Positions 18,923 through 27,123 of a stretch of DNA of 64,000 bases are shown one piece after another. Within the stretch, counting starts at the first letter, position 1; each line of letters opens with the position of its first letter. Both the position numbers and the translations under genes were made by a program. The notes beneath the pieces are model-generated. The model had not been told where the DNA came from, searched no databases, and was given only the letters and a program-made list of their open reading frames with translations. Source of the DNA: Flavihumibacter soli. GTDB lineage: Bacteria > Bacteroidota > Bacteroidia > Sphingobacteriales > Sphingobacteriaceae. The stretch is from positions 868,001-932,000 of the forward strand of contig NZ_JAAFZB010000096.1 of assembly GCF_010692725.1 (NCBI RefSeq). Reading direction: 5' to 3'.

Positions 18923-21643
18923 TTAGGAGCCGAAGAGGCTCTTTGCCTTTTCGACCACTTTTTCCAGGTCAACACCTTTTCCCATTACTCCTTTAAAGAG
19001 ATCGCCTTCCCTTCTCAGTCGTTCAATGGAGTTAAAGATTGTGAAGTCCTTCATTTTTAAACCCGGCTTTACCTCATCCCAGTGCAGCGGCATGGAAACT
19101 GTAGCGCCAACTTTAGGTCGTAGGGAGTATGGACCGGCAATGGTAGCCCCGGGTCGGTTCTGTAAGAAATCCAGGTACATCTTCCCATTGCGGTTGGCGA
19201 CCATCCTCTCAATGCTTGTAAAATCAGGAAGATTCTTATGTACGATGTTCACAATGATGCGCGCAAACATCTGCGACTGGTCAAAGGTGTACTTAGCTCC
19301 GAGCGGAATGTAGATATGCATACCGGTCGAGCCGGAGGTTTTAACGTAGGAGGGGACATCTATCTCATCGAGGACACGTTTCACTTCCTGTGCAGCTTCA
19401 ATCACCTGGTCGAACGTGTTCTTATCCGGATCCAGGTCAATTACACAATAATCCGGGTTGTCCGGAGACTGTACCCTGCTGAACCACGGGTTCATCTCGA
19501 TGCAGCCTAAAGAAGCTGCCCACAATAGTGTTGCCTCGTCATCTCCAACCAGGTATTCCTTGGCCTCCCCATCGCTGGTACTGTAGGGAAATGTCTTTGC
19601 CCATTCGGGAGCTTTACCCTTTACATCCTTCTGGTAAAAGCTTGACGCATGAATGCCGCCTGGATACCGGTTCAGGGAAAGCGGGCGGTCTTTTAAGTAG
19701 GGTAATATATATTCGGCGACCTGGTAATAAAAGTTGAACATATCCCGCTTGGTAACATTATCTTCCGGCCAGTATACCTTGCTCAGGTTGGTAAACTTGA
19801 GATCATGACCGCAGACCTTTCGAACCTGCGTTTCGTCGGTCGGGTTAAGCAATGTTTTTCGTTGCTTGCTCTTTGGAGGCTTAACTGCAGTCTTATGCCT
19901 GGAGTGTTTGGGCTGTGTTGTTTCCTCAGTTTCCTCCAATACTTCCTCTACCTCTTCCGGAGTTTCCCTTATCACTTCTGAGGCCTTTTTGTCTTCACGC
20001 ATCCCCTGGAAAGAAGGATGCCGAAATACACCATCGCTGGTGACCTCTGCAAAGGCTACTTCGCAAACCAGTTCCGGTTTCAGCCATGTGGCTTTAGCCT
20101 TCGGAGGATTTGGTCGGAAACGAGATGGTTTATTTACGTCTGGCAGGAAGCTGAAGGGATTCTTATCGGTGATCAGCGGCTTAAATAAAGCCATCATCTC
20201 CTTTTGGGTTTTATCAGAAAACCCGGTGCCTACCTTTCCGACATATTGAAGCTCCTTATTTTCATATACTCCCAGAAGCAGGGAACTAAAGTGCTTGCGT
20301 GTATCCTCGTTCTTTGTAAAACCGGCAATGATGACTTCCTGCCGCTTACTCACCTTGATCTTCAGCCATTCCCGCGAGCGGTTATTTGCGGAGTATGTAC
20401 TATCTGCTTTTTTAGCGATTATACCCTCCAGCCCCATCCGCTCGGCGGCCTGAAAGAAGTCAGTCCCCTTCGCATGAAACACCTTGCTTAAGCGGATACG
20501 GTCATCATCTGTCGGTAGTATTTCCTTAAGAACTACCTGTCTTTCGATCAGCGGCAGATCCATCAGGCTCTTACCGTCATACCAAAGAAGGTCAAACACA
20601 TAGAAAATCAATTCGCCGTCAGCTTCACTGCGCCAGTTCTGTAAGTTGCCGAAATTGGAAATCCCTTTATCGTTGATCACCAGGATCTCCCCGTCGAGGA
20701 CGGCATCCATCTTCCATTCTTTTAGAACCTGGTGGATAGGATAGAACTTGGAATCAAAGCTCTTGTTGTTACGTGATAACAATTCCACCTCACCCTTATT
20801 GACAAATGCAAGCGCTCGGTAGCCATCCCATTTTACTTCGTACACCCAATCCGGATCGTCAAATGGCTTGTCGACCAGGGTCGCGAGCATCGGTTTAATC
20901 CCTTCAGGGATCTTTGCTTTTTTTGCCTTTTTTAAAATTGACTGAGCGTCAGCGACCTCCTCCTCCTCAGAGTCTTCATCATTTGTTTCTTCAACCAGTT
21001 TCCTTTTGCCTGATCGTTTCTCCTTTTCAATGGTCTGTTCTTTCCCACCCTTCCACACTTTGTCACTGGTCTTCTCCATGGACTCTATGGTTTTGCCCGA
21101 AATAACAGACTTGTCCTTTTGGGTAATATCATCTGCGGAGGCAAATTCGTCCTTATGCTTAATAAGAAGCCAGCCGTTCTCACCCATTCCGTTTGTCTTC
21201 ACAAGTGCATATTCGCCCTGGAGCTTCTTCCCGTGAAGCATCAGTTTCAATGAACCGTCCTTCAGCTGCTTAAGAAGATGCTTCTCCTGGGCTTTTTTAC
21301 CCTTGATCTTCTCTATAGGCTCGTACGTGCCCTCATCCCAAACGATGACAGTTCCACCACCATAATTACCTTTAGGAATGATGCCCTCAAATAAACGATA
21401 ATCATAGGGATGATCTTCCACCATCATAGCCAGGCGTTTGTTCTTCGGATCGGTGGATGGCCCTTTCGGTACTGCCCAGCTTTTAAGAACACCTTCCATC
21501 TCAAGCCTGAAATCATAGTGCAGACGTGTAGCATCGTGCTTCTGTATGACAAAATGGAGTTTATCCTTATCGGTGCTTTTCCCGGACTTCGGTTCAGAAG
21601 TTTTCGAGAAATCCCGCTTTTTGACATATTTTTCCAGACTCAT
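18923..21643 (-). CDS. ligD: ATP-dependent DNA ligase D (non-homologous end joining)
   Basis: A 906-residue three-domain NHEJ enzyme in the order phosphoesterase - ligase - polymerase. The PE domain (about 30-150) has HDATRLHYDFRLEMEG and DHPYDYRLFEG; the ligase nucleotidyl-lysine is in YEVKWDGYRAL near residue 270; the primase-like polymerase (about 615-890) has CVIDLDPD near 734. It ends, repairs and seals double-strand breaks with Ku, which is not in this window. A highly charged linker (about 205-240) and another (about 565-610) join the domains. The ATG overlaps the stop of the DUF3606 gene by four bases, so translation is coupled. Confidence 0.96.
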   Translation of the reverse strand: MSLEKYVKKRDFSKTSEPKSGKSTDKDKLHFVIQKHDATRLHYDFRLEMEGVLKSWAVPKGPSTDPKNKRLAMMVEDHPYDYRLFEGIIPKGNYGGGTVIVWDEGTYEPIEKIKGKKAQEKHLLKQLKDGSLKLMLHGKKLQGEYALVKTNGMGENGWLLIKHKDEFASADDITQKDKSVISGKTIESMEKTSDKVWKGGKEQTIEKEKRSGKRKLVEETNDEDSEEEEVADAQSILKKAKKAKIPEGIKPMLATLVDKPFDDPDWVYEVKWDGYRALAFVNKGEVELLSRNNKSFDSKFYPIHQVLKEWKMDAVLDGEILVINDKGISNFGNLQNWRSEADGELIFYVFDLLWYDGKSLMDLPLIERQVVLKEILPTDDDRIRLSKVFHAKGTDFFQAAERMGLEGIIAKKADSTYSANNRSREWLKIKVSKRQEVIIAGFTKNEDTRKHFSSLLLGVYENKELQYVGKVGTGFSDKTQKEMMALFKPLITDKNPFSFLPDVNKPSRFRPNPPKAKATWLKPELVCEVAFAEVTSDGVFRHPSFQGMREDKKASEVIRETPEEVEEVLEETEETTQPKHSRHKTAVKPPKSKQRKTLLNPTDETQVRKVCGHDLKFTNLSKVYWPEDNVTKRDMFNFYYQVAEYILPYLKDRPLSLNRYPGGIHASSFYQKDVKGKAPEWAKTFPYSTSDGEAKEYLVGDDEATLLWAASLGCIEMNPWFSRVQSPDNPDYCVIDLDPDKNTFDQVIEAAQEVKRVLDEIDVPSYVKTSGSTGMHIYIPLGAKYTFDQSQMFARIIVNIVHKNLPDFTSIERMVANRNGKMYLDFLQNRPGATIAGPYSLRPKVGATVSMPLHWDEVKPGLKMKDFTIFNSIERLRREGDLFKGVMGKGVDLEKVVEKAKSLFGS

Positions 21644-23791: not shown

Positions 23792-24099
23792 AGTAAAACG
23801 TTTAGGGAGTGCATCAGCGGCAGATGCCATAACACTAGCTCTGCTGCCGATAACCGCCTCCCGGTTAAACACTTAAATTGGTATCCGCTAAAACCCACAA
23901 AAATGAGACCTTGACAGGCTTTCATTTGTAAAAAATGAGATATAGACGACAAACGCAGAAAAGGAAGTGCCCGAGCGCCGGCAAATATCCTGGTCAGGAA
24001 AATCATGAGAATAGTATAAAATCGAATCATCACATAGCTATCTAATAGCGTAATTATTCGGCACACTGGAGATTTTTACAGGAAATTAGAAAATTATTG

Positions 24100-24107
24100 T
24101 ACCTTTG
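24100..24107 (+). promoter_or_regulatory. Candidate -7 box of the rtcB-prfH operon
   Basis: TACCTTTG matches the Bacteroidota -7 consensus TAnnTTTG. A T-rich patch at 24072-24078 occupies the -33 region but has no clean TTG. If used, transcription would start near 24113 and leave a 250-base leader before the first long gene. Confidence 0.45.
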
Positions 24108-24146
24108 AATTAATTCCTTAATTGTTAAACTTAATAACAAGGAACC

Positions 24147-24191
24147 ATGAAGCATCTTACTTCCATATCGCCCCTTTCGCTTATTGCCTAA
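24147..24191 (+). CDS. Possible 14-codon leader peptide upstream of the rtcB-prfH operon
   Basis: ATG at 24147 opens MKHLTSISPLSLIA and stops at TAA 24189-24191. An AAGGA sequence at 24139-24143 is a reasonable ribosome-binding site, which is rare in this genome and makes translation more credible. It follows the -7-like box by about 40 bases and its stop is directly against the left arm of the stem at 24193. It could be a regulatory leader that senses ribosome progress, or chance. There is no homologue I recognise. Confidence 0.35.
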   Translation: MKHLTSISPLSLIA

Positions 24192-24192
24192 A

Positions 24193-24322
24193 CGGCAGGC
24201 CAAATACTATTCATTTTCTTGAGAATATAAGTGGTGCAATTTCGCAGTTGTAGCGTATTTATTACCTGCCGACATCCTTTAGGTTTTTGAGCATACGCAA
24301 AGGGTATATCTCTACCAGAGAT
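24193..24322 (+). other. Structured RNA leader before the rtcB-prfH operon
   Basis: A closing stem pairs CGGCAGG (24193-24199) with CCTGCCG (24265-24271) and, after a small internal loop, AAATAC (24202-24207) with GTATTT (24255-24260), enclosing a small TATTC/GAATA hairpin. Downstream are CCTTT/AAAGG (24276-24303) and a perfect ATCTCT-ACC-AGAGAT hairpin (24308-24322). No terminator-like T-run follows the big stem. The pairing is seen by eye only; no known RNA family was recognised. Confidence 0.35.
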
Positions 24323-24369
24323 GAAGTTTAAAATCACAAAATTTTAGAATTTCTTAATACCCGGATCCA

Positions 24370-25089
24370 ATGGACCCACAGGAATGGCTGTATCGTTTAA
24401 GATCGGCCAGACAAAAGAAACGACTCGTCAGAAAAGATCGGGATAAACAATTGATTAGACTGGACAGAAGACAATCTGAGTTATTGAAAATACGCTGGAG
24501 CCTGCCGATGATCCCACTTGATCGCCCTTATCAGAAGGGTTGGAAGCGATTATTTGTGCTCAGAGACGATGTTCAAAGGTCTTCAAACGAAGCCTTTCAT
24601 CAGGCCTTACTGGATAAGATCAATACGGTTATCTATCATTTCGATAAGTCATTCAAAGTAAAGAAACGGCGCAAAAGAAGATATGGCCAGAAGACTATTC
24701 CTCAATCACTTCGGGAAATTTCCGATTACGATTGGCAAAGGAATCATTTCAAGTTAACAGAAGAAGAGCAGGCATATTTCCTGAAAACAGAGACCATGCA
24801 CCTGAAGACCCGGTATACGGAAGTAAGATACGTTTACACAGAGACCTGGCGCTTTGTCCTTAAGGTGATGCCTCACATAATTACAGAGGTAAAAATGCTT
24901 GATGAAATCCTGGAACAGGAAATAAAGTCTATTGATAATCACATCGACAGTAACAACTTATGGCCCAGGATAAGGCGCTTAACAAATGGAAGAAGCTACC
25001 GTCCCTGGGAATATGTCGAAAAGCCGAAGTATCATAACGAATTAAAGAACATGCCAGCGTACGGTGATAAAGAAGCCTACTTGGATTAA
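24370..25089 (+). CDS. Uncharacterised basic protein, first gene of the rtcB-prfH operon
   Basis: A 239-residue cytosolic protein I cannot assign to a family. It is strongly basic and probably mostly helical: RLRSARQKKRLVRKDRDKQL at the N-terminus, KVKKRRKRRYGQ near residue 100, then a segment rich in aromatic residues (KTRYTEVRYVYTETWRFVLK). No signal peptide, membrane segment or catalytic motif is visible. It is 15 bp upstream of rtcB on the same strand. The charge suggests binding to RNA or the ribosome, and the position suggests a third member of the repair operon; I have a vague recollection of such a gene next to rtcB in other Bacteroidota. Function unknown. Confidence 0.85.
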   Translation: MDPQEWLYRLRSARQKKRLVRKDRDKQLIRLDRRQSELLKIRWSLPMIPLDRPYQKGWKRLFVLRDDVQRSSNEAFHQALLDKINTVIYHFDKSFKVKKRRKRRYGQKTIPQSLREISDYDWQRNHFKLTEEEQAYFLKTETMHLKTRYTEVRYVYTETWRFVLKVMPHIITEVKMLDEILEQEIKSIDNHIDSNNLWPRIRRLTNGRSYRPWEYVEKPKYHNELKNMPAYGDKEAYLD

Positions 25090-25104
25090 AAAAAATAGAC
25101 CCAA

Positions 25105-26502
25105 ATGGGAAATTTAAAAACAAAACAATTAAATAAACTAGGCTACACCAACAATCAGTTAAGAAGCCTTGTGATCAATGTAGTTTCAAAACACTTTAAG
25201 CATTATAACAATGAGCAGATCATTGATTTATTAACCGCCATTAAAAATAATCCGGAGAACTACATTGATGATGTACACACCGGGAAAATCGCCGCGAAGA
25301 TAATTGGTAAAGTAGATGAACCAGGTTTTAAGTCTTACGATTTACGGGACGATGCTGTGCCCTACAAAGTATATGGTGCCAGGGACATCGAAGCAAGCGC
25401 CATCAAGCAAATGGAACTCGCAGCGAGACTACCGGTAAGCGTACAGGGTGCTTTAATGCCTGATGCACGCATGGGATTTGGCTTGCCTATCGGTGGAGTA
25501 CTCGCTACCAGGAGCGCAGTTATTCCTTACGCCGTTGGAATGGATATCGGTTGCCGAATGGCCTTGTCGATCATTGATGAAACTGATGCTTTTATCAAAC
25601 GCTCAGAATACCAGATCAAACAGGCCCTGAAAAACTTTACCCACTTTGGTATGGAAGGAGGACTCGAGGTCCGGCAGGAACATGAGGTGCTTGACAGCCC
25701 TGTTTTCCAGCAATTGGCTTTCCTGAAACCGCTGCGAGGTAAGGCAGTAAGACAATTGGGTACATCCGGTAACGGTAACCATTTTGTGGAGTTTGGTGAA
25801 ATCGAGCTCGCAGAAAACAACACATTGGGATTACCTGCGAAGAAGTACACTGCCTTACTATCACATTCTGGTAGTCGCGGACTAGGTGCGGCAATAGCAA
25901 AGCATTATACCCAGGTGGCGATGAATACCTGCAAACTACCGCGGCACGCAAAACAACTCGCCTGGCTCGATATGGATAGTGAGGCTGGTCAGGAATACTG
26001 GCTGGCGATGACACTGGCTGGCGATTACGCCAAAGCCTGCCACGAACAGATCCATGCTAACCTGCTTAAAGCCCTGGGACTAAAAGCCATTCAGGTTATT
26101 GAGAACCATCACAATTTTGCCTGGAAAGAGATGCATGATGGAAAGGAGGTGATTGTTCACCGCAAAGGCGCAACACCAGCAAACAGGGGAGAATTGGGAA
26201 TCATTCCCGGCAGTATGATCTCACCTGCCTACCTGGTAGCAGGGAAAGGTGTCAATACTGCTCTGAATTCTGCTTCGCATGGGGCTGGCCGTGTCATGAG
26301 CCGCCAGAAAGCCAAAGACAATATGACGGTTTCGGCAATGAGAAAGCTCTTGCTAAATGCCGGAGTAACACTTATCGGTGGCAGCGTCGAGGAAAACCCT
26401 TTAGCCTATAAAGACATCGAAAAGGTAATTCAGGCGCAAAGGGATCTGGTTGATATTCAAGGGAAGTTTACACCCCGTATTGTAAGAATGAACAAGGATT
26501 AA
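25105..26502 (+). CDS. rtcB: RtcB-family RNA ligase (RtcB2 type)
   Basis: A 465-residue GTP-dependent RNA ligase that joins 2',3'-cyclic phosphate (or 3'-phosphate) to 5'-OH ends. Metal-site motifs are VGMDIGCRM (Cys-150), GNGNHFVEF and HSGSRGLG; the guanylylated histidine is in ASHGAGRVMSR (about residue 392). The family's C-terminal IGGSVEENPLAYKDIEKV is intact. It is followed 3 bp later by prfH. RtcB2-PrfH operons repair 16S rRNA cut in the decoding centre by ribotoxins such as colicin E3 and then release stalled ribosomes, so this copy is best read as an rRNA repair enzyme rather than a tRNA-splicing ligase. Confidence 0.95.
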   Translation: MGNLKTKQLNKLGYTNNQLRSLVINVVSKHFKHYNNEQIIDLLTAIKNNPENYIDDVHTGKIAAKIIGKVDEPGFKSYDLRDDAVPYKVYGARDIEASAIKQMELAARLPVSVQGALMPDARMGFGLPIGGVLATRSAVIPYAVGMDIGCRMALSIIDETDAFIKRSEYQIKQALKNFTHFGMEGGLEVRQEHEVLDSPVFQQLAFLKPLRGKAVRQLGTSGNGNHFVEFGEIELAENNTLGLPAKKYTALLSHSGSRGLGAAIAKHYTQVAMNTCKLPRHAKQLAWLDMDSEAGQEYWLAMTLAGDYAKACHEQIHANLLKALGLKAIQVIENHHNFAWKEMHDGKEVIVHRKGATPANRGELGIIPGSMISPAYLVAGKGVNTALNSASHGAGRVMSRQKAKDNMTVSAMRKLLLNAGVTLIGGSVEENPLAYKDIEKVIQAQRDLVDIQGKFTPRIVRMNKD

Positions 26503-26505
26503 GCT

Positions 26506-27123
26506 ATGAAGAAGGTAATTATACAACTCACATCAGGAAAAGGCCCGGCAGAATGTTGCCGGGCAGTTTTCCGAATTCGTGAAATCATGATTAAACAAGC
26601 TTCCGCACAAGGAATCAATATTGTCGAGATTGATAGCAAAAAGGCAGATAGAGATGCCACGTTGCTTTCGGTTACCCTTGCCGCCCAGGGTGACAACCTG
26701 CAAGCATTCATTCAGGAATGGAAGGGTACAATTCAATGGATAGCTAAAAGCCCCTATCGTCCATACCATCAACGTAAAAACTGGTTTGCCGGCGTTTCAA
26801 TCTTTGATGTTAAGGAGTTCGCTGAATGGAATCCGCATGAGGTAAAAATAGAAACCTGCAGAGCCTCCGGCCCGGGTGGCCAAAATGTCAATAAAGTGGA
26901 AACGGCAGTTAGAGGCACGCATATTCCCTCAGGTATTCAGGTGTTCGCTATGGACAGCCGTTCGCAGCTGGAAAACAAAAAGTTGTGTTTGAGCAGGCTG
27001 GAAGCTAAAGTGATGAGCTGGCAGGCGGAACAATTAGCACAAAATCAAGTAAATCAGTGGCTATCTCATCTTTCTTTAAGCAGAGGAAATCCGATAAAAA
27101 CTTTTAGGATGGACCTGAGTTAG
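26506..27123 (+). CDS. prfH: Peptide chain release factor-like protein PrfH
   Basis: A 205-residue release-factor homologue. The catalytic GGQ is present in ASGPGGQNVNKVETAVRG (Gly-124, Gly-125, Gln-126), and the ending LSLSRGNPIKTFRMDLS is typical of PrfH. Domain I and the stop-codon recognition part of RF1/RF2 are reduced, as expected for PrfH, which acts on ribosomes with damaged decoding centres. The start is 3 bp after the rtcB stop, the canonical arrangement of the rtcB2-prfH pair. The gene is complete and intact. Confidence 0.95.
   Translation: MKKVIIQLTSGKGPAECCRAVFRIREIMIKQASAQGINIVEIDSKKADRDATLLSVTLAAQGDNLQAFIQEWKGTIQWIAKSPYRPYHQRKNWFAGVSIFDVKEFAEWNPHEVKIETCRASGPGGQNVNKVETAVRGTHIPSGIQVFAMDSRSQLENKKLCLSRLEAKVMSWQAEQLAQNQVNQWLSHLSLSRGNPIKTFRMDLS

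Follow-up and report, generated by a model that had tools for sequence, protein, structure and literature searches.

How is an operon for ribosome repair informed that there are ribosomes to be repaired, and what does a strongly basic protein do as its first gene? Both questions are raised by a locus of Flavihumibacter soli. The DNA analysed is a stretch of 64,000 nucleotides (nt) from contig NZ_JAAFZB010000096.1, positions 868,001 to 932,000 of the forward strand; this whole stretch is called the window below, and coordinates are counted from its first letter. Three genes stand there in tandem, for a basic accessory protein, the RNA ligase RtcB and the release factor PrfH. What is new here is a conserved leader of about 230 nt before the operon, called type A, with an open reading frame (ORF) of 14 codons and four helices. 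We propose, with a probability of roughly 0.6, that the ribosome-repair operon of these three genes stands under a translated leader RNA that reads the state of the ribosome. The genes are:

24370..25089, plus strand: first gene, basic accessory protein of 239 amino acids (aa); ORF call, 27-member alignment, linkage
25105..26502, plus strand: rtcB, RNA ligase of 465 aa; ORF call, Pfam profile, alignment with solved RtcB
26506..27123, plus strand: prfH, peptide chain release factor H of 205 aa; ORF call, TIGR03072, alignment with solved PrfH

An original prediction, made from the letters of the locus, had described an operon of three genes with the first only 15 bp from rtcB. The ORFs at 24370-25089, 25105-26502 and 26506-27123 were verified, all on the plus strand, and the gaps measure 15 bp between the basic protein and rtcB and 3 bp between rtcB and prfH. 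The RtcB product matches PF01139 with E 9.1e-77 (cut-off 27 bits). It retains C150, H226, H254, H335-336 and H392, and C150, H226, H254, H335 and H392 align with the solved RtcB; we take these residues to be catalytic. PrfH scores 229.6 bits against TIGR03072 (cut-off 166.65), and its GGQ, which begins at residue 124, aligns with that of the solved PrfH chain. Cys-150, His-392 and the GGQ, which the prediction had called intact, are thus where it placed them. Judged by its genes and active sites, the operon is a candidate for RtcB-PrfH ribosome repair, an activity known from E. coli, where RtcB2-PrfH repairs ribosomes with cut 16S rRNA (PMC9223846). The window shares with that system the tandem of rtcB and prfH and a PrfH that belongs to TIGR03072. 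It differs in that the E. coli plasmid locus has two genes only instead of three, and in that the window RtcB stays below the cut-off of TIGR03073, the model of the proteobacterial-type RtcB of PrfH operons (145.3 vs 271.8 bits). The text of PMC9223846 makes no mention of a leader, attenuation or a third gene. The genome of the window has a further, general-type RtcB on another contig; no archease (an RtcB helper) was found in this genome, which says little by itself.

The leaders of rtcB-prfH operons

What precedes the first gene? A stretch of about 230 nt is common to the upstream sequences of relatives, and the following features can be placed on it in the window:

24100..24107, plus strand: TAnnTTTG box, TACCTTTG; from the sequence, at the start position of the original prediction
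24110..24339, plus strand: type A leader RNA of about 230 nt; model R1, 157.9 bits with the window in the training set
24113..24145, plus strand: helix P0, 24113-24118 with 24140-24145, directly 5' of the leader start codon; last pair non-standard in the window
24147..24191, plus strand: leader ORF of 14 codons, MKHLTSISPLSLIA; start codon at a fixed distance from an ATAT motif
24172..24304, plus strand: helix P1, 24172-24177 (within the leader ORF) with 24299-24304; structure alignment
24194..24270, plus strand: helix P2, 24194-24199 with 24265-24270; structure alignment
24308..24322, plus strand: helix P3, 24308-24313 with 24317-24322; structure alignment

For comparison, 27 type A leaders were chosen by a pattern, an ATG at most 35 nt 5' of the ATAT motif; two of them are identical and others are near-duplicates. 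A distance of 17 nt was not demanded by the pattern, and in 27 of 27 leaders the start codon lies 17 nt 5' of the motif. The predicted ORF has 14 codons in 18 leaders, 7 in five, 15 in three and 12 in one, so that an in-frame stop always comes within 15 codons, and it overlaps the putative regulatory helix P1. The GGTATAT motif, which is outside the ORF, is invariant except for one column. The TAnnTTTG box, presumably the -7 promoter element of Bacteroidota, stands just upstream of P0 in 24 of the 27 leaders. The four helices were named from one member (L056), and 88.1% of their cells are paired. Their covariation score is 0.144 against a shuffle mean of 0.107; it was reached by 0 of 500 shuffles, and slid versions gave 0.103 at most.

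Alignment A3, with 24 of the 27 leaders, was the source of model R1. The pattern had missed L050, L057, L058, L059, L060, L076, L126, L180 and L181, and R1 recovers all of these except L060. A profile free of the window, with the same-genus row also removed, finds 24112-24326 at E 1.9e-28 as its sole match in the 64 kb. Genomes were scanned in two samples, 201 of the family and 395 of the phylum, with strict filters; the E-values of R1 and of the model R2 described below are rough. At E < 1e-4, R1 has 32 hits in the family sample, spread over 30 genomes (rows beyond 1e-4 up to 0.01, at 22-26 bits, were treated as noise). Among these, 26 are before basic-protein/rtcB or rtcB genes and four before the basic protein or a fragment of it alone; one is before a lone TPR-like gene (L180) and one, a weak leader, before rtcB and prfH in pieces (L181). 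Matches outside the training set include G121, G178, G089, G155, G025 and G031:C42. R1 gave no match at the loci with a general-type rtcB in G110, in G172 and in the window's own genome (L147-L149). A scan of 23900-24480 with Rfam 15 gave three matches of 14.9-17.8 bits, which were rejected as far below the gathering thresholds of 39-41 bits. On its sequence the type A leader could be a new RNA family, and literature searches, with subscription papers and preprints outside their scope, found no Bacteroidota leader for the rtcB-prfH operon.

Do relatives have the same leader? Most other operons have another, type B, in the same position. Its order, recovered by pattern in 29 of 37 loci, is segment 1 (CGAAG or CGGAG just before the start codon), an ORF of 24-28 codons, segment 2 (CTTCGTG or CTTCGCG across LRG/LRA codons of the ORF), and a hairpin with a T run (3:4). 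The hairpin is mostly CCCGAAG...TTCGGG and is degenerate in L136. The pattern missed L076 (a type A leader), L078, L079, L083, L125, L130, L133 and L138; alignment A4 holds 26 of the 29 loci, with L064, L073 and L136 omitted as near-duplicate or degenerate. Against single-letter shuffles of the segments, the 1:2 pairing averages -10.8 kcal/mol vs -4.0 (p < 0.05 in 29 of 29 loci) and the 2:3 pairing -13.3 vs -5.3 (p < 0.05 in 27 of 29). When segment 2 is swapped from another group, 1:2 becomes weaker (-8.3 kcal/mol). An AAGCCC-type segment 2 pairs poorly with an AAACCC-type segment 3 (-7.9 kcal/mol) and the reverse swap pairs well (-13.1), thus the covariation of 2:3 is one-sided. Among 500 shuffles, one reached the covariation score of 2:3 and none that of 3:4, and each score comes mainly from a single pair; one pair each is changed on both sides, not above the shuffles. 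These predicted pairings give type B the layout of a 1:2 / 2:3 / 3:4 leader-peptide transcription attenuator.

Model R2 covers 36 of the 37 candidate loci, L133 with only 41.7 bits and L076 not at all. It was trained on many of the same loci, so its evidential weight lies in specificity and not in recall. In the 395 phylum genomes it has a match upstream of the operon in 25 genomes at E <= 1.1e-6, all of them among the 27 genomes in which PrfH is over the cut-off. Its best match away from an operon has 50.7 bits (G224:C1, E 4.1e-6), and genomes that lack PrfH give 47.9 bits at most (G228), with about two dozen weaker rows after.

The samples hold 27 and 33 PrfH genomes, 59 jointly because the window's genome, present in both, is counted once in joined counts. 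Type A or B was found by model in 58 of the 59, that is in all 27 from the phylum sample and in 32 of the 33 from the family sample. In the former, 25 genomes have B, and A is found in the window's genome and in G216, whose leader (L076) was not in training and scores 65 bits (E 7e-16). In the latter, A occurs in 21 genomes and B in 11 (L133 among them), and neither model matches in G058 (L060), where the upstream stretch is similar by eye only. As a separate observation, short ORFs stand before rtcB in three of four plasmid loci examined, those of E. coli (15 codons), Shinella (13) and Aureibacter (10), beginning at position 1300 of L192, 1280 of L194 and 1845 of L195. The Aureibacter leader region has ATATCGCCC as in type A, yet no R1 match; the fourth locus, of Thiodictyon, has no convincing short ORF before rtcB. 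It may be that rtcB-prfH operons more generally carry a leader ORF.

How a leader might read the ribosome

How could such leaders work? A published case is found in Pseudomonas aeruginosa, where, in the sections of PMC12057347, PMC3516279 and PMC13041342 considered here, PA5471 (armZ, RtcB-like) and PA5470 (prfH) are induced by ribosome-targeting drugs via a 13-aa leader peptide, PA5471.1, whose ORF lies about 250 bp before them. According to the published model, full translation of the leader leads to a 3:4 terminator, and stalling prevents 3:4. The type B leaders have the same segment layout, compared by layout and not by sequence. The window's ORF is comparable in size and place, with 14 codons that end 178 nt before the first gene. 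Unlike the P. aeruginosa leader, type A has no terminator that could be seen, and leader, phylum and operon content differ as well. Since stalling on the leader peptide reportedly induces that RtcB-like/prfH operon, stall-induced repair is the best reading of the present leaders. Very likely the type B leaders of relatives sense stalling, and we think the same likely, with less assurance, for type A of the window.

The scenario for the window would be as follows. Transcription would start near 24110. Working ribosomes would translate the leader ORF to its stop and cover the 5' strand of P1, so that P1 would be blocked and the operon kept low. Damaged or jammed ribosomes would stall on the leader start or close to it; P1 could then form and the operon be expressed. 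PrfH would free the stalled ribosome, RtcB would reseal the cut rRNA, and on the ribosome the basic protein might keep RtcB in contact with the cut RNA. The direction of this switch (P1 as the on state) we infer by likeness to the known case, as we also infer an effect of P1 on expression. Nine of the 27 leaders were folded, and a ribosome footprint at the leader start raised P1 in 9 of 9. P1 responds in folding to the position of the footprint, hence it can report where the ribosome is.

Several observations weigh against this scenario. A footprint at the leader stop brings P1 to 0 in 9 of 9 folded leaders, which is forced by the block itself; and when no ribosome is present, 7 of the 9 form P1 only weakly (expected pairs below 1). 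Predicted access to the first gene's start shifts by at most 0.09 in any ribosome state, so that a switch hiding this start was not adopted as the way type A works. The helices have 11 pairs changed on both sides, which is not above a +1 slide (12), their additional pair types are equalled by 17 of 500 shuffles, and RNAalifold finds 15 pairs, its covariation term being just 0.04. No intrinsic terminator was seen when the type A leaders were read by eye, with no program scan. According to a review among the three papers cited above, the P. aeruginosa mechanism itself still requires confirmation. Finally, G110, G172 and G155 have the type A leader and the basic protein without rtcB 3' of it.

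Does the short ORF matter at all? The type A leader might instead bind a ligand or a protein, as a riboswitch-like element or as one through which RtcB, PrfH or the basic protein autoregulates the operon, and the ORF would be incidental. It is a structured RNA whose conserved GGTATAT motif lies outside the ORF, its leader peptide varies and is as short as 7 codons in 5 of 27 leaders, and no intrinsic terminator was seen. However, an incidental ORF sits badly with a start codon whose distance is constant in all 27 leaders and an in-frame stop within 15 codons, with the type B leader, which takes the same position and has the layout of an attenuator read by translation, and with the leader-peptide precedent of P. 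aeruginosa in the sections cited. We regard the binding element as improbable, at about one chance in four, and keep to stall sensing.

The basic protein and its partners

Is the first gene a true partner of this operon? The basic protein was searched in the phylum sample with profile A1 (match limit E <= 0.001) and in the family sample with a single protein as query; since the query differed, the count of the family sample may be low. In the phylum sample the protein is present in 11 of 395 genomes, all 11 within the 27 PrfH genomes, and in 0 of the 368 without PrfH. It has 12 copies there, all at the operon, and two in tandem in G286; at this locus (L078) the two copies are divergent, with a type B leader between them. 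The family sample has the whole gene in 14 of 201 genomes and a fragment in one (G120). Of the 14, rtcB follows directly 3' on the same strand in 11, and prfH too in 8; one of these 11, L051 (G167), has an internal stop in the rtcB of an otherwise complete operon. When both samples are joined, the whole gene is found in 24 genomes with rtcB directly 3' in 21 and prfH in 18, and it is present in 18 of the 59 PrfH genomes.

Which of the two is the closer partner? G127, G180 and G178 have the basic protein with rtcB, and a search of these genomes for PrfH gave nothing at E <= 1e-40; two loci of Pedobacter (L016, L017), a genus of Sphingobacteriaceae, Bacteroidota, have both with no prfH within the available stretch. 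That the pair persists where prfH is missing indicates RtcB as the first partner. The distances of the basic protein and RtcB correlate with r 0.64 across 23 loci and 0.86 across 13 family loci; 0 of 2000 permutations were as high, and shared descent alone accounts for part of this. Remnants of the basic protein stand before rtcB in 2 of 46 loci that lack the third gene, L126 (E 3.3e-5) and L137 (E 3.8e-5), so the gene can vanish while leader, rtcB and prfH remain; other suspected remnants among the 46 were not significant. The basic protein is a true conserved partner of the operon, optional, and tied to rtcB more than to prfH. The original prediction had considered the first gene as a possible conserved partner and had asked for a count of neighbours, with homologues mostly away from rtcB-prfH as the outcome that would break the link. 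The count, with PrfH in 11 of 11 phylum genomes, all 12 copies at the operon and rtcB 3' in 11 of 14 family genomes, bears out the partnership, and homologues are not mostly away from the operon.

The window's protein has a net charge of +18 and pI 9.9, in agreement with the earlier description of a strongly basic, motif-free protein of 239 residues, and no match to a family library is over the cut-off. Its alignment has 27 members (the window included, fragment L061 excluded), all basic with net +16 to +32, and P53, G57 and Y154 are invariant. Relatives beside rtcB, in several families of bacteria, have about 40% identity, and the window's genome carries a single copy. The window's protein has no NCBIfam match at E <= 1 and, like all six proteins tested, no PADLOC match at E <= 0.01. 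The best values of the 27 members are E 0.0044 against Pfam (17.5 bits, cut-off 25) and E 0.014 against PHROG. That Pfam match, to DNA_meth_N over 24 residues in one of 27 members, was regarded as chance, and PDB profile matches of E 0.18 and 0.2 at best were rejected. With tblastn no relative was found among 72,556 plasmid and 50,697 phage records, nor in viral contigs for the window's protein or one related query. By its sequence, the protein appears as a conserved family that matches no known family in the libraries searched.

Is it new to the literature? Loci of other families in the phylum sample are arranged as [basic protein] - rtcB - [zinc-ribbon or nucleotidyltransferase (NTase)-like] - prfH - TPR-like, and the TPR-like gene is present in 25 of 26 loci besides the window. 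Pfam TPR and NTase matches of these accessory proteins are below cut-offs, and the zinc ribbon was assigned by eye from CxxC motifs. Section 2.4 of PMC6514570 (Burroughs & Aravind 2019) describes four genes that accompany RFH and RtcB in their operons. They encode a TPR protein, an NTase of the Pol-beta type, a ZnR protein whose C-terminal helical region is charged, and a protein with highly charged helical regions and no detectable homologues. The relatives of the window operon resemble this set, as they carry TPR, NTase-like, zinc-ribbon and charged, homologue-less genes beside RtcB and PrfH. The basic protein is probably the fourth gene of that section, being charged, homologue-less and next to RFH-RtcB, a match by description only. 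The same section already proposes contact of such charged regions with rRNA, which is close to the present reading. Its passages do not mention a leader; the present analysis adds counts of the gene, its occurrence with rtcB in the absence of prfH, and its place behind a leader RNA. The original prediction was right on the conserved partner; its word "unrecognised" for the third gene is probably not apt in view of section 2.4, and the link is primarily to rtcB rather than to prfH. As a side observation, L180:2265-2986 has a type A leader and, immediately 3' of it, a TPR-like gene (172 aa) that stands alone; its protein is 63-64% identical to the TPR genes of three rtcB operon loci. This suggests a regulon beyond one operon.

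Then what does the basic protein do? From its linkage to rtcB and its charge, an RNA-binding role linked to RtcB, as an adaptor, has in our view about an even chance. It is possible, with less probability, that the protein has its own role under the same control, e.g. in protecting the ribosome or binding rRNA. At L048 and L055, where the leader and the basic protein are present, tblastn finds no rtcB nearby at E <= 1; PrfH has no match at E <= 1e-40 in either genome, and the lone TPR gene under leader A tells that members of the accessory set can stand alone. But such cases are only 3 of 24 genomes; the third, G155, has a general-type rtcB head to head with the basic-protein gene, G110 and G172 possess RtcB elsewhere in the genome, and the basic gene adjoins rtcB also where prfH is absent. 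Could it be a passenger, beside rtcB by position alone and without function in repair? Its presence in only 18 of 59 PrfH genomes would allow this, as would the two clear remnants among the 46 loci, which record its loss while leader, rtcB and prfH stay. A passenger would hardly be kept beside rtcB in several families at about 40% identity, however, nor be missing from all 368 phylum-sample genomes without PrfH, and we consider it very improbable. The adaptor is the role we prefer. Elsewhere in the window, 18923-21643 on the minus strand holds a 906-aa ORF that resembles ATP-dependent DNA ligase D, a name from reading alone.

A possible regulon of ribosome repair

A wider scenario can be drawn, which we offer as a speculation that is rather unlikely to hold in full: the rtcB-prfH genes of Bacteroidota may form a small regulon under two unrelated leaders that both measure stalling, of which type A would be a new class of RNA switch without terminator, and the basic, TPR, zinc-ribbon and NTase-like proteins may dock RtcB on ribosomes with a cut decoding centre. 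In this scenario toxin-cut ribosomes would stall at the leader start, so that the damage would turn on its own repair. That the basic protein stays beside rtcB even in loci that lack prfH suggests a partner specific to RtcB. With a conserved leader in two forms, the timing of RtcB-PrfH repair becomes directly testable with a reporter. And the leader before the operon would link two phyla by one logic, in which stalled ribosomes call for their own repair.

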